DNA of 25,684 nt from a virus. The notes below the pieces were generated by a model that was not told the DNA's origin, did not search any database, and saw nothing but the letters and a program-made list of their open reading frames with translations. Within the stretch, counting starts at the first letter, position 1, and every line of letters starts with the position of its first letter. Location of the stretch: positions 13,502 to 39,185 of IMG/VR virus record IMGVR_UViG_3300000116_000059. The stretch is one strand, 5' to 3'. The translations under genes were made by a program, and so were the position numbers. Of this stretch, positions 6,070 to 12,001 are shown in pieces.

Positions 6070-8771
6070 TTGAAAATACCTTTAAGTGGATTGTTAAAAG
6101 AATTCAACACTGCGGCAGTAGTACTTACTATCTTAGATCCAGTGCCTGCCATAACAGGAGCACCGCTAGATGAATTATTCATCATTGTTCCAATGAGAGA
6201 TGTTGCTTGCTGTGCTATTTGACCAGCACTGGCATTATTCTGTGTAACTTGAGCTACTGTCATCTGAACACCTGCTTGAGCAAATTGTAAAATACGTTGT
6301 TTTGCATCATTACGTTGTTGAGTTGCTGCTTGCATCTGTTGAGATGATGTACCCCCACTTGAATTTATATTAGTACCACTTAAAGTTTGCCCAGATCTAA
6401 CTCCAGTTGAGTTTTGTGAATAATCCCCCATTGAAGTTTGACCTCTGGTGGACTTTGCTCCAAGTAAACTTGCACCAACATAGTTACGTGTGGTATCCAT
6501 ACCGAAACCATTACTACTCCTATCGATACTATCACTTCCACTACCAGGAGGACCACCACCAGTTCCTCCATCAGGATTAATTTCAGAGTTTACAGTTTTT
6601 AATCCAGGGTTACTTGCAGTATTGAATGTGTGATTCCCATACTTAACCTCATTGACCTGTTGGGAGGGATCTACGAAAGCAGCATCATAATTTCTAAATC
6701 CAGTTGATGCCATCAAGTAGTTAATTTGTTCAGGAGATATATTACCCTTTGCTTCAAGTCTACCCCTAAGGTCTGCAGGATTTCTTGCTATCTCAATTGC
6801 TTTTTTCGCCTTTTCCAAATCCCCTGCAGACCTTACTCGATCAATCGAACCGTTTTTAGTAGGTGAATACTGTGGACCTGCTCCATAGATAATATCATTA
6901 ATACTACCACTTTTGGACATGAATATTCCAGGTCCAACAACACCCGATTGAACCAGACCCGATCTGTTTAGAACCGATCTAGCAACTAATGCCATACCTA
7001 ATTCACCTTCACCACTTGATTCTGCCAAAACAAGTCTTTGCAATAAATTATATTCGGCACTATTCATTTTATTGTCTCCACCAGTAGCATCAGCACCAGC
7101 ACCAGGACCCGATTCGTTCAGTACGGGAGGATTTGACATTCCCATAAATCTCTTCATCATCATGCGAAGTTTATCACCACCACCACCATCAGGGTCGGTT
7201 TTCTTAAGTTTGTGTAAGTCAGAACGCTCTCCAGTTCCACCCCACCAAGTAGGACCATAATTAGGAGTTGGTCTCCTACCATCCTTGTTTGACGCTGCTT
7301 CTGCATGCGTCATAACATTTTTAATGCTTACATCACTTGGTTTCCATCCCCAACCTTTAGCAACAGCTGCTGCCTCACCAGTCATTGCATCAAGTTGTTT
7401 TTTCTTTGGACTATATCGATCCCAGTTATAGTCTTTCATTGCTGCAACAGAAATACCTACGTTTCCTGTATTTCTGCGCCAAGTATGACCAGTGTACTGA
7501 TTATATTTTTTATGCTTATGTAAGGAACCATCACCCTGAACCGTAGTATGATATGGTCCATTTTTCCAATTATATCTACTAGCAGTCCAATGCATGTAAA
7601 TTTGCTTATTTAAATTACCACCAGCAGCAAATCCAGGTAATTTAAATCCTGCTTTCTGTGCCTCACCGATTCTCTTATCGGTAAGTCCAGGCATTCTCTT
7701 AGTCGCAGAAGTATTGAAGGGAACAACAAATGCTCCACCACCTGCTTTACGAGCAACATACTCTTTACCATGACCAATGAATGATGTGCTCCTGCCACCA
7801 TCTAAAGATACAGGATAACCAGACTGAGGACCATCAATCCAACCACCAGCAGCACGTTCTGGGATATATCCCTGCGCTTTTGCATCTTCTAGTAATCCTC
7901 TTGCTTTTAAGGTTGCTCTTGTTGGTTTACCTTTAGTAGATGGATCATATCCTTCTTCTCCCTTAGTTCTACCCTCAGCATCCATATTGCCAATCAACGA
8001 ACCATCACCAGCAGGACGGGTTGCAACGCCCTCAGAAAGTAACCAGAGAGCAGCAGCACCAAGACCAACCTTACCAAGCGCACCAAGAGCACCTTTACCC
8101 TTTGTGAATGCAATCAGCAGTCGAATACTAGTACCAATATCCTTAATAATTTTAAGAGGATTAGTAAGATACCTAATACCTAATAAAATTGTACCTAAAC
8201 CAATAATTGCTTTACCAAATCCTAAAGTTTTTTCCCACCAAGTAGTTTCTCCACTAAACAATTCATATAAACCGTCAATGGTATTTGAAATTCCAAATTC
8301 TGCCCATTTGAACAAAAATTCACCAAATGTTACAATACCACCAATAATAGTTTTGACAGTCTTTCTATTTTCTGGATCTGCAATCCAGTCTAAAACTTTC
8401 TTTCCAATATAAATTTTAAATAAATTACCAAGAAGTCCTAAGACACTTTCAAAGAAACCCTTAACTTTATTTGCTCCAAGATTTCCAAGAAATCCCGAAT
8501 TTTTTCTTTCTGTTTTTTCTTTAGCAAACTTTGCTTTAAAAACTTTCTGATTTTTTTGCTTTTGTTCTAGATCAGATAATGAAATTGTTTTAAGATCTGA
8601 TAGTATAAGTGCCAATGAGTTGACAGTTCTACCTAAGTTATTAACTGCCGTAGTATTAGAGTTCAGAGCAGCAACTAATTTAACCTCAGATTTTGGTAAA
8701 CCTTCACTAGGTTTCTTTACCTGAACGAATTTGTAAAAATTTATTTTACTAGTTTTAGATATGATTGCCAT
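6066..8771 (-). CDS. Tape-measure-like tail protein with amidase and SleB-like hydrolase domains
   Basis: This 901-aa protein has four parts. Residues ~30-205 are paralogous to the next-upstream gene (NTTAVNNLG, GKKVLDWIADPENRKTVKT, DGLYELFSGETT). Residues ~195-250 are hydrophobic. Residues ~388-522 look like an Amidase_2/PGRP N-acetylmuramoyl-alanine amidase (IYMHWTAS with His394, THAEA with His489, a later Asp518 as possible third zinc ligand). Residues ~572-720 look like a SleB-type cell wall hydrolase (LLQRLVLAESSGEGELGMAL with Glu584 as likely catalytic residue, VARSVLNRSG, and YGNHTF near the end). The C-terminal 180 residues are Gly/Ser/Gln-rich. The start ATG overlaps the upstream stop (TAATG). 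Inferred role: a tail-interior protein that opens the peptidoglycan during DNA delivery. Confidence 0.75.
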   Translation of the reverse strand: MAIISKTSKINFYKFVQVKKPSEGLPKSEVKLVAALNSNTTAVNNLGRTVNSLALILSDLKTISLSDLEQKQKNQKVFKAKFAKEKTERKNSGFLGNLGANKVKGFFESVLGLLGNLFKIYIGKKVLDWIADPENRKTVKTIIGGIVTFGEFLFKWAEFGISNTIDGLYELFSGETTWWEKTLGFGKAIIGLGTILLGIRYLTNPLKIIKDIGTSIRLLIAFTKGKGALGALGKVGLGAAALWLLSEGVATRPAGDGSLIGNMDAEGRTKGEEGYDPSTKGKPTRATLKARGLLEDAKAQGYIPERAAGGWIDGPQSGYPVSLDGGRSTSFIGHGKEYVARKAGGGAFVVPFNTSATKRMPGLTDKRIGEAQKAGFKLPGFAAGGNLNKQIYMHWTASRYNWKNGPYHTTVQGDGSLHKHKKYNQYTGHTWRRNTGNVGISVAAMKDYNWDRYSPKKKQLDAMTGEAAAVAKGWGWKPSDVSIKNVMTHAEAASNKDGRRPTPNYGPTWWGGTGERSDLHKLKKTDPDGGGGDKLRMMMKRFMGMSNPPVLNESGPGAGADATGGDNKMNSAEYNLLQRLVLAESSGEGELGMALVARSVLNRSGLVQSGVVGPGIFMSKSGSINDIIYGAGPQYSPTKNGSIDRVRSAGDLEKAKKAIEIARNPADLRGRLEAKGNISPEQINYLMASTGFRNYDAAFVDPSQQVNEVKYGNHTFNTASNPGLKTVNSEINPDGGTGGGPPGSGSDSIDRSSNGFGMDTTRNYVGASLLGAKSTRGQTSMGDYSQNSTGVRSGQTLSGTNINSSGGTSSQQMQAATQQRNDAKQRILQFAQAGVQMTVAQVTQNNASAGQIAQQATSLIGTMMNNSSSGAPVMAGTGSKIVSTTAAVLNSFNNPLKGIFK

Positions 8772-11110
8772 TATTGCATTCTCTGCGTTAAGGTAGAAGT
8801 TCCGCTCTGGACAGCATTACTAGATGAATTATTTATTGGTACTGCTTGAGGAACAAGTTGGAATTCTTTTATGACGATTGGAATTGGTAGGAATTCGATC
8901 GCTTCTTGCATAACATACCTTTCAGACAACCCACCTTGAGATAATGCATCATTTCCTCTACTAACTGCACCGATAATTTTAGGGTCAACACCAACTTGTG
9001 CTGCAGTTTCAGCAATTCCCGCACTCATATCTCCACCAGTAATTGCTGCTTTAGCAATACCAGATATACCAGAAGGTATACCAAGAGAAGACGTAACCAT
9101 GCCGAGACCCTGATCCATTGCACCCATATAGTTTCCAGAAAGAATGCTCTGCCCAATCTGTCCAAGAGGACTACTCATAGCAGCACTAAAACCAGGGATA
9201 AAACTACCTGCAGCACCTAAAATATCACCCACATTGAAATTACCTTGCATAATGTTAGATGCCATACCAATTCCTGCCATGATAGGTCCTGCACCAGGAA
9301 TGAATGATGCAACACCTCTCACTATAGGATTGTTAACAACACTACCAATTGCCTTACCAATTCCACCTGTAACTCCTTTGATTGCATTACCAACACTCTT
9401 AACTACACCACCAAGGAACATCTGCTGAGGTTGTACAAGACCACCATTAGATTTACCCATTGGAGGTGCTTCGCCAGCAGGATGTGGAAGAATACCATCT
9501 TGGACTAGTTTATTATATGCGTCTAGTGATTGGAATCCATAATTATCACCAGCAAAATACTTTTCTTGACCGTCAATAGTTACTTTTTCACCAACTTTCT
9601 TATCATCGAGATTCATAGTATCTCTAGAGAAGAATGCCTTTCCTATGAGTTTTGCTTTATCAAGCATATTCATAGGATTCATCATAAAGAAGGGATCAGG
9701 AACTTTCTGTCCAAAGATATTCATCTTTGGAAATCCATCTAGTAATCTACTAAATCCATCTCCTGCCCAACCAATGAATAATTTTCCTGCTTCAAAAAGT
9801 TTTTGAATATCTCTCTTTAACTTGGCTCCAACTGCACCAGGACCATCCCCTTTGATGAGGATGTACATGAGTTCACCAACATATTCACCAAGGATAGCAC
9901 CAAGAGCAGTACCAAGAATAGGAATAGGGATAAAACTACCAAGTAATCCACCGAGAGCAGTACCACCTGCTACAAATAATGCTTTACTTAAGTTTCTATC
10001 AGGTTTCCCGTCTAGAGGATCGACATCTTCAAAATATGTGTAGATACCAGCGATGAGAGCACCAACAAATGGTATTCTACCCATGGCATTCTTCGCTGCT
10101 GCTGAAGATGCTCTAGCAATTTTTGCTGCTTTCGGACCTGCTTTAAATGCTGCTCTCTGAAGACCAGGAGACAATGGAACGTTAGCAGTACCAGTTTGAA
10201 GATTTGCCCTAAATCCTGCCATTCTACTTGCTCTGGCAGGTTGTGTTAGACCTGATGCAGTCTGTCCAGGTCTAACAACTCTGTTGAGATTATCTCTATA
10301 TTGACTTCCTCTTCCAGCAACTTGATTTCCTGCAGAATCGCTTCTTCGCATGAAACTAGCAGGTCTGGAAAAACTTCTTGCCCCAGACTGGAATGCATTC
10401 GTCCCTCTTTGGGTATTCCTTTGATTGTTGTTTCTATTTCTATTTAAGTCTCTATCTCTACCACCAGGAAGTGCATTAGCAGCAAGAAGAATGGCACCCA
10501 TTCCTCCAATTGCTAGAGCAATTTTACCAAATGCTTCTAATCTTTGTTCAATTGTAGTCTCTTTACCAAAGATGAAATCTAGTCCATCTGAGACTTTAGA
10601 TGTGATATCACCAGATAACTCTTTAATCTTATCAAATACAAATTGAGACCTTTCTAAGAAAGTTTTAATCTTTATTGAATTTTCTGGATCTGAAAAATAA
10701 TCTAATGCCTTTTTTGTAAGAGCAAATGCACCAAGATCAAGGAGTAATGAACCAAGAGGACCTAAGAAATTTTGCAACCAACCAAATGCACCTTTGGTAG
10801 TTTTCTTTAATCCCGATTTTAATTTTGATTCGTCTTTTTTATTAGGTTTATCTTTTACTATTTCTTCAGAACTTTCTGCCTGCTTGTCTTTTTCTAATCT
10901 TTCTTGTCTTCTTTCAATAAGAATATTCTTTTTATCTATCTTCGATTTTGCGTCACTAATCCCTCGGAGATCACTGATAGTATTTGCAATACTAGTGACA
11001 GCAACACCTAAGTTATTGACAGCATAGGTATTTAAATTTATCGCATTAACAACTGTACTCTTTTGAGATATCTCTGGACTGACCAATTTGTATGCGGTAA
11101 TGTTAGCCAC
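8771..11110 (-). CDS. Tape-measure-like tail protein (paralogue of the following gene)
   Basis: This 779-aa protein starts at a GTG overlapping the stop of the -1-frame gp51-like ORF (GTGGCTAA), with AAGGAG upstream. Residues 18-52 (NAINLNTYAVNNLG, then SDLRGIS) and ~108-210 (TKKALDYFSDPENSIKIKT, DGLDFIFGKETT) align with the next protein. Between these modules is a charged, probable coiled-coil stretch (~55-105). Then come an Arg/Asn/Gln-rich low-complexity segment (~217-300), an Ala-rich helix, and Gly/Ala/Ile-rich hydrophobic segments (residues ~345-420 and again around 555-640). Long helical and hydrophobic glycine-rich segments, together with a position just after the gp26/gp51-like pair, fit a tape-measure protein (T4 gp29 role). 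No enzyme motif is visible. Confidence 0.65.
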   Translation of the reverse strand: MANITAYKLVSPEISQKSTVVNAINLNTYAVNNLGVAVTSIANTISDLRGISDAKSKIDKKNILIERRQERLEKDKQAESSEEIVKDKPNKKDESKLKSGLKKTTKGAFGWLQNFLGPLGSLLLDLGAFALTKKALDYFSDPENSIKIKTFLERSQFVFDKIKELSGDITSKVSDGLDFIFGKETTIEQRLEAFGKIALAIGGMGAILLAANALPGGRDRDLNRNRNNNQRNTQRGTNAFQSGARSFSRPASFMRRSDSAGNQVAGRGSQYRDNLNRVVRPGQTASGLTQPARASRMAGFRANLQTGTANVPLSPGLQRAAFKAGPKAAKIARASSAAAKNAMGRIPFVGALIAGIYTYFEDVDPLDGKPDRNLSKALFVAGGTALGGLLGSFIPIPILGTALGAILGEYVGELMYILIKGDGPGAVGAKLKRDIQKLFEAGKLFIGWAGDGFSRLLDGFPKMNIFGQKVPDPFFMMNPMNMLDKAKLIGKAFFSRDTMNLDDKKVGEKVTIDGQEKYFAGDNYGFQSLDAYNKLVQDGILPHPAGEAPPMGKSNGGLVQPQQMFLGGVVKSVGNAIKGVTGGIGKAIGSVVNNPIVRGVASFIPGAGPIMAGIGMASNIMQGNFNVGDILGAAGSFIPGFSAAMSSPLGQIGQSILSGNYMGAMDQGLGMVTSSLGIPSGISGIAKAAITGGDMSAGIAETAAQVGVDPKIIGAVSRGNDALSQGGLSERYVMQEAIEFLPIPIVIKEFQLVPQAVPINNSSSNAVQSGTSTLTQRMQ

Positions 11111-11297
11111 TTGCTGCCTGCTGCTCCTTCATACGTTTTTCTTCTTCTTTAAGGAATTGAACTAATAGATTTACATAAATTTCTTTTTCCCAGGGCATGA
11201 GATTATCAATATGTTCTATATTCCATTTATGATGATGCATTAATGCAAAATTGCCCTCATAATAAGACCGAAGATTCGTGTGTAGGAGTACTATGCG
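11103..11297 (-). CDS. gp51-like domain in the -1 frame of gp26 (predicted frameshift extension)
   Basis: This 64-codon reading frame follows directly from a -1 slip near the end of gp26. It begins RIVLLHTNLRSYYEGNFALM and continues HHHKWNIEHIDNLMPWEKEI, then a Lys/Glu-rich helix ending EQQAASG. The NLMPWEKEIYVNLL segment is characteristic of small hub-assembly (gp51-type) and tail-assembly-chaperone C-terminal domains. No ATG, GTG or TTG begins the frame. The first internal ATG, at 11240, would cut off the conserved-looking YYEGNFALM part and has only a distant GAGGG. The simplest reading is expression as a 299-aa gp26-gp51-like fusion by programmed -1 frameshifting, with a 45-aa form from 11240 as the alternative. 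Its TAA overlaps the GTG of the tape-measure-like gene. Confidence 0.7.
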   Translation of the reverse strand, partial: RIVLLHTNLRSYYEGNFALMHHHKWNIEHIDNLMPWEKEIYVNLLVQFLKEEEKRMKEQQAASG

Positions 11298-12001
11298 AAA
11301 AAACTCGCTAATCCCTCAAGTACGATCTCATTTTCAACTCCAGTGTTAGGATTGGTTACCTTGATTGTATGTGACAATTTGGGCATGGTTTCAAAGAAAT
11401 TTTGAATCATACCAAATTGCTTGCTACTTAGTTGATCAAAAAATTCAAGAAGTTCTGCTTTAGGGAAATCCTTACAATCATATACTTGATTAGCATCAGA
11501 AATTGTTTTAATGCAAGTTGCTGCCATCTCAAAAACTTGATCCACCTGATTATTGCCATTGTCAAAGTTCATCTGGACAAATGTCTCAATGGAAGGATAT
11601 CCCATAGAGATTGCAACTTCATCAGACAATTTTATATCAGATTTATGTCCCCTAGTCTTATGAATTTTGATGTCATCCAAAGGAATGGTGACATCAACTT
11701 CAGTTTCACCATCATCATTACAAGTGACCGTTGCATTAACATTTTCACCTACAGATGATGTGCGAATTTTAAGAAATAAAAATTCAATATCAAAAGTAGC
11801 TAAAGAAGAAACGTCTTTAATATCAGTACAATCAGTGATGATTTTTTTGATTGCGTTAACCATATCTTCTGAATCACCAGTTTCAGTGGCGATCAAAAGA
11901 AGTTTTTCTTCTTTTACTAGAAATGGTCTATAAGTAACCTTTGTTCCCGTAGATGGTAATGTTGTTTTATAACTAGGAACATTTAACTTAGGTAATGGCA
12001 T
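11291..12001 (-). CDS. gp26: Baseplate hub subunit gp26-like / tail-assembly chaperone
   Basis: This 236-aa protein starts MPLPKLNVPSYKTTLPSTG and contains KVTYRPFLVKEEKLLLIA, TDCTDI and the FDIEFLFLKIRTSSVGE motif (about residues 68-84) typical of the T4 gp26 baseplate family, whose members carry a conserved FDF/FDI sequence. T4 gp26 is 208 aa, so the length fits. A late promoter (12023-12030) lies 22 nt upstream, but no Shine-Dalgarno is visible before the ATG. The last codons contain a slippery heptamer that can extend the protein into the gp51-like frame. With the tape-measure-like gene next, a dosage-controlled tail-assembly chaperone role (lambda gpG/gpGT style) is inferred in addition to the hub label. 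Confidence 0.8.
   Translation of the reverse strand: MPLPKLNVPSYKTTLPSTGTKVTYRPFLVKEEKLLLIATETGDSEDMVNAIKKIITDCTDIKDVSSLATFDIEFLFLKIRTSSVGENVNATVTCNDDGETEVDVTIPLDDIKIHKTRGHKSDIKLSDEVAISMGYPSIETFVQMNFDNGNNQVDQVFEMAATCIKTISDANQVYDCKDFPKAELLEFFDQLSSKQFGMIQNFFETMPKLSHTIKVTNPNTGVENEIVLEGLASFFA
11297..11317 (-). other. Programmed -1 frameshift site at the end of gp26
   Basis: In the gp26 frame the codons read AGT TTT TTC GCA TAG. The heptamer T TTT TTC (11303-11297) allows both phenylalanine tRNAs to re-pair perfectly after a -1 slip. A Shine-Dalgarno-like GAGGGA (11317-11312) lies eight bases upstream, the position of the stimulatory element in dnaX-type bacterial frameshifting. The zero-frame stop follows one codon after the site. 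No strong downstream hairpin is evident by eye. Confidence 0.7.

Follow-up and report, generated by a model that had tools for sequence, protein, structure and literature searches.

This locus raises the question of how the gp51-like domain encoded just beyond the gp26 stop codon is translated, namely as a small protein of its own or as an extension of gp26 made by a -1 frameshift. The window, that is, the whole stretch of 25,684 nucleotides that was analysed, belongs to a 39-kb virus contig, and the locus lies on its minus strand. The gp26 ORF (11291..12001, 236 aa) was assigned as a putative short form of a tail assembly chaperone (TAC-N or G-like). Its product matched the Pfam family PF12322 (T4_baseplate; E value, 2.5e-76; 256.6 bits versus a curated cut-off of 24.5) and phrog_150 (E value, 2e-88), and showed 94.5% identity with gp26 of Synechococcus phage ACG-2014b. 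The AlphaFold model of gp26 had a mean pLDDT of 86, and the only match with appreciable probability was a weak one to the HK97 chaperone 2ob9 (probability, 0.63-0.66; E value, 0.6-1.0). PDB structure searches with the AlphaFold models gave no significant match, and a model of the T4 gp51 type gave none.

Direct reading of the 3' end of gp26 gave GCG AGT TTT TTC GCA TAG, in which the zero-frame codons AGT TTT TTC contain the heptamer T TTT TTC (11297..11303), and the TAG stop (11291..11293) is one codon past it. A Shine-Dalgarno (SD)-like GAGGG is located at 11313..11317, with its GAGG ending 10 nt 5' of the heptamer; read as GAGGGA (11317..11312), the motif is separated from the heptamer by eight bases. 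The -1 frame starts with CGC at 11297, encodes a domain beginning with RIVLLHTN (RIVLLHTNLRSYYEGNFALM...QAASG) over 64 codons (11106..11297), and ends at a TAA (11105..11103). This frame matched phrog_634 (baseplate hub assembly catalyst, gp51; E value, 4e-31 over 62 residues), and tblastn found the domain in 485 phage records. A preliminary description of this DNA had pointed out the heptamer at the end of gp26, the SD-like GAGGGA eight bases upstream and a protein-like -1 frame that stays open for 64 codons, all of which were borne out. If the frame is shifted here, the tryptic junction peptide of the fusion is predicted to be VTNPNTGVENEIVLEGLASFFR, while the short form would terminate in ...GLASFFA.

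Conservation was evaluated with 117 gp26 genes that were less than 90% identical to each other in nucleotide sequence (hereafter, the representatives). The -1 frame was open in 117/117, while each of the other two frames contained stops within 50 codons in 117/117. In the -1 domain, 64% of the differences fell at third positions, the ratio of synonymous to non-synonymous codon changes was 18797:9090, and the constraint was stronger than that on gp26 itself. These values indicate purifying selection on the -1 domain.

The terminal Phe-Phe pair was encoded by a slippery sequence in 116/116 representatives, whereas the other Phe-Phe pairs of the same gp26 genes were slippery in only 3/133 cases. 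The first terminal Phe codon was TTT in 117/117. TTC accounts for only 30% of the Phe codons in these genes and is thus the minority codon, yet it was used for the second Phe (codon 234) in 114/116. When lineages sharing less than 60% nucleotide identity were compared, the heptamer was present in 10/10 and a slippery control Phe-Phe pair in 0/10 (Fisher's exact test, 1e-5), and at less than 70% identity the values were 20/20 and 0/20. Since this contrast persists at both cut-offs, it is robust to relatedness. Across all 178 loci that carry the domain after gp26 and a six-T run in the right phase, the sequence was TTTTTTC at 174, TTTTTTT at three and TTTTTTG at one. The heptamer is absent from a further locus (L144) owing to a deletion at the end of its gp26; the last ca. 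28 codons are missing near 1880-1900 while the gp51 domain is intact, and this gap is either a real deletion or an assembly error. Judged from these counts, the heptamer is under selection, far above chance. The alignment of many homologues proposed in the preliminary description thus found both the heptamer and the open -1 frame to be conserved.

The sequences flanking the heptamer were then compared. GGAGG or GAGG ended exactly 10 nt 5' of the heptamer in 87/117 representatives, and Glu codon 228 was GAG in 101/109 as against an overall GAG usage of ca. 31%. An SD-like motif 10 nt 5' of a slippery site is the arrangement of the dnaX-type stimulator. In the clade of P-SSM2 and S-PM2 (including loci L083 and L084), a 10-bp hairpin starts 6 nt 3' of the heptamer. 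Pairing was retained in 90% of cells, covariation exceeded that of all 500 shuffles, and one of the pairs is U-A, A-U or G-C depending on the phage. In the window's clade, the RNAalifold consensus gave only a trivial structure, the covariation of two helices drawn by hand was not above that of shuffles, and no well-supported downstream stimulatory hairpin was found. Separately, the segment 11279-11321 of the window, which spans the SD-like motif, the heptamer and the sequence down to CTCC, can form a strong hairpin, for which no covariation support was found in that clade. Because of this lack of covariation, the energy minimum around the heptamer was discounted as a stimulator in the window's clade.

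A comparison with T4 related the two reading frames to a single known protein. T4 gp26 matches PF12322 only, while T4 gp51 matches PF12322 over residues 1-201 (E value, 4e-52) and phrog_634 over residues 147-246 (E value, 1e-23). The predicted frameshift fusions were combined into a profile, which aligned with residues 16-245 of T4 gp51, running straight across the junction, but with T4 gp26 only along the part corresponding to the short form. The short and long forms of T4 are, therefore, separate paralogous genes.

These observations bear on three other explanations of the locus. If the heptamer were an accident of a conserved Phe-Phe pair and the -1 ORF a decaying remnant, the conservation of Phe-Phe itself would be accounted for, but this idea is contradicted both by the rarity of T TTT TTY at the other Phe-Phe pairs and by the purifying selection on the -1 domain, which leaves it next to no probability. 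The same fusion could also arise from a mixed mRNA population if RNA polymerase slipped on the T run and inserted a U, and it is true that the conserved element is a six-T run. However, six T's are short for transcriptional slippage, slippage of this type should favour the longer T TTT TTT, which occurs in only 2/116 representatives, and the SD-like spacing and the hairpin located 6 nt downstream are translational signals; we regard polymerase slippage as hardly credible.

It is also very unlikely, if less far-fetched, that gp51 is a separate small protein made from its own start or through reinitiation after ribosomes terminate at the gp26 stop. This is how public records present it, since gp51 begins at or just past the gp26 stop in those of P-SSM2, S-PM2, S-CRM01, phiM7 and MED4-213, and an ATG, of the P-SSM2 and S-PM2 type, is indeed the fourth codon after the slip in 55/117 representatives; in P-SSM2 and S-PM2 annotators have used it as the start of gp51. 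In P-SSM7 (locus L082, 1600-1695), the annotated gp51 begins at an internal Met (MPWEKEIYV...), which halves the conserved domain, and the ACG-2014b record that was opened omits gp51 altogether. A separate start does not fit the other phages. No ATG, GTG or TTG was present in the -1 frame 5' of the heptamer in 117/117 representatives, and in 32 of them, including the window, the earliest start codon of the frame is an ATG at codon 20, inside the conserved domain. The window's clade accordingly has no ATG, GTG or TTG before codon 20, in agreement with the preliminary description, which saw no good start in this frame. The annotated start of P-SSM7 likewise falls inside the conserved domain, and separate translation would leave the heptamers of 116/116 representatives unexplained, while T4 gp51 directly shows the fused form. 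Even the ATG of the P-SSM2/S-PM2 clade is part of the 5' arm of the hairpin that covaries, and the sequence is, therefore, more in keeping with a frameshift stimulator than with a start site.

We thus consider it probable, at roughly 90%, that a programmed -1 frameshift joins gp26 to the gp51-like domain and yields a short and a long tail assembly chaperone, as the preliminary description had suggested. This reading is the best supported because of the conservation of the heptamer, the codon choice, the SD-like spacing, the lack of a start codon and the co-linear homology to T4 gp51. From the comparisons above, we infer the slippage, its efficiency and the roles of the products as follows. Most ribosomes would read gene 26 to the TAG and produce the short form of 236 residues. 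A minority would be paused by binding to the SD-like GAGGG 10 nt upstream, both Phe-tRNAs would slip back by one base on U UUU UUC, and the TAG would be missed. The slipped ribosomes would then add the gp51-like domain of 64 residues to give a long form of ca. 300 residues. As the analogy to lambda gpG/gpGT suggests, coating of the tape measure protein, the presumed product of the next gene, would fall to the short form, and recruitment of tail-tube subunits to the long one. The chaperone role is proposed on the basis of T4 gp26/gp51, the lambda analogy and the position in front of a candidate tape measure gene.

This next gene (8771..11110, 779 aa) begins with a GTG and overlaps the stop of the -1 frame by 8 nt (11103-11110; GTGGCTAA), and this offset of the start recurs in 79/108 representatives. 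Because of this overlap, only frameshifted ribosomes would run into the gene, and the arrangement may couple them into its translation. The best family match of the 779-aa product was phrog_790 (labelled endolysin), and the gene and its relatives carry that label in public records, although Pfam detected no lytic domain in this copy. The preliminary description had called the gene tape-measure-like; its position and composition suggest a candidate tape measure protein, but sequence and family searches gave no match to a tape measure family. On the other side, the chaperone locus follows a gene of a tail-tube family (phrog_45).

The junction extends beyond cyanophages. T TTT TTC is kept in Vibrio phages 6E35.1a and Bakedbeans, Cronobacter phage LPCS28, Aeromonas phage AsFcp_1 and a vibriophage contig of 244,834 bp; T TTT TTT is present in Methylophilales phage Melnitz and Sinorhizobium phages phiM7 and phiM12, and T TTT TTG in Rhizobium phage RHph_I9. 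A search of viral contigs with the domain of Cronobacter phage LPCS28 found no relatives. Among the Ackermannviridae, Kuttervirus, Taipeivirus and Aglimvirinae (L095 and L194-L196) keep the gp51-like domain in the -1 frame after gp26, and 280 records, many without an annotated gene, matched their version of it. No classical slippery heptamer is present at their junction, ATT TTC ATT TAA, and most Ackermannviridae thus appear to have lost it.

Taken together, these distributions could mean that the 26(-1)51 frameshift is ancestral to the T4-like superfamily, a tentative reading whose parts, as a whole, we place at slightly less than even odds. In it, T4 and its close relatives would have escaped frameshifting by gene duplication, with the long form fixed in frame. 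The stimulators would differ between lineages, the SD-like motif acting alone in the window's clade, whereas in the P-SSM2/S-PM2 clade it would act together with the covarying hairpin, in which the presumed start of gp51 is concealed. In most Ackermannviridae, which keep the -1 domain, the heptamer would have been replaced by ATT TTC ATT TAA, so that either the shift site would be unusual or the two parts would be joined by other means.

The frameshift also bears on how these genes are recorded. The gp51 proteins of cyanophages and marine vibriophages seemingly lack their first ca. 200 residues (Sullivan et al. 2010, PMC3037559). The frameshift would account for this N-terminal gap, since it supplies these residues from gp26. 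Since the cyanophage records opened either omit gp51 (ACG-2014b), truncate it (P-SSM7) or assign it a separate start, annotation as a joined gene is advisable.

The idea of a frameshifted T4-like chaperone is already in the literature, and the gain here is in detail and breadth. According to the passages of the phage Adele paper (PMC12846349) that cite Vladimirov et al. 2022, T4-like phages are known to have poly-T slippery sequences in their short-form genes, and according to the corresponding passages of the PRFect paper (PMC10885494), some T4-like phages do without frameshifting and have two chaperone genes, one for the short form and a fused one for the long form. The T4-like chaperones of Vladimirov, Gautam and Davidson 2022 (Virology 566:9-15) are, as far as these citing passages describe them, apparently the same proteins as ours. 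Since both papers cite that work for T4-like chaperones, we count the kind of system as known, and the cyanophage gp26/gp51 case is possibly already listed there. Full-text literature searches, whose reach did not extend to Vladimirov et al. 2022, yielded no publication that describes a gp26/gp51 frameshift for cyanophages. The codon-choice test, the SD spacing, the covarying hairpin and the Ackermannviridae exception may or may not be included in that work; the hairpin that buries the annotated gp51 start in P-SSM2/S-PM2 and the heptamer loss in most Ackermannviridae may be new details.

Among characterised systems, the predicted arrangement resembles lambda gpG/gpGT, in which a low-level -1 slip near the 3' end of the gene for a short protein gives a longer form with a C-terminal domain. 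The C-terminal domain of lambda gpGT acts with the tape measure protein, and neither product is found in the virion (PMC5009743). The present system differs in having the heptamer U UUU UUC and an SD-like stimulator, and no sequence similarity between the two is expected. The chaperones of Vandenendeviridae and Andersonviridae, described with phage Adele, have a conserved -1 frameshift at a poly-T in the 3' end of the short-form gene (PMC12846349), but belong to another phage group and use the motif GTTTTT. In T4, gp26 and gp51 are hub assembly chaperones, and gp51 is not in the particle (T4 review, PMC3004832). T4 gp26 is the short form and gp51 an in-frame fusion of a gp26-like domain with the C-terminal domain, encoded by two genes on opposite strands, whereas the window has one locus with a predicted frameshift. 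The preliminary description had proposed that a T4-type 26/51 was turned here into a G/GT-style pair; the likeness to the G/GT frameshift stands, but 26/51 of T4 is already a short/long pair, divided between two genes. This two-gene pair accounts for T4 being listed as an exception to the frameshift of G-T chaperones (Atkins et al. 2016, PMC5009743).
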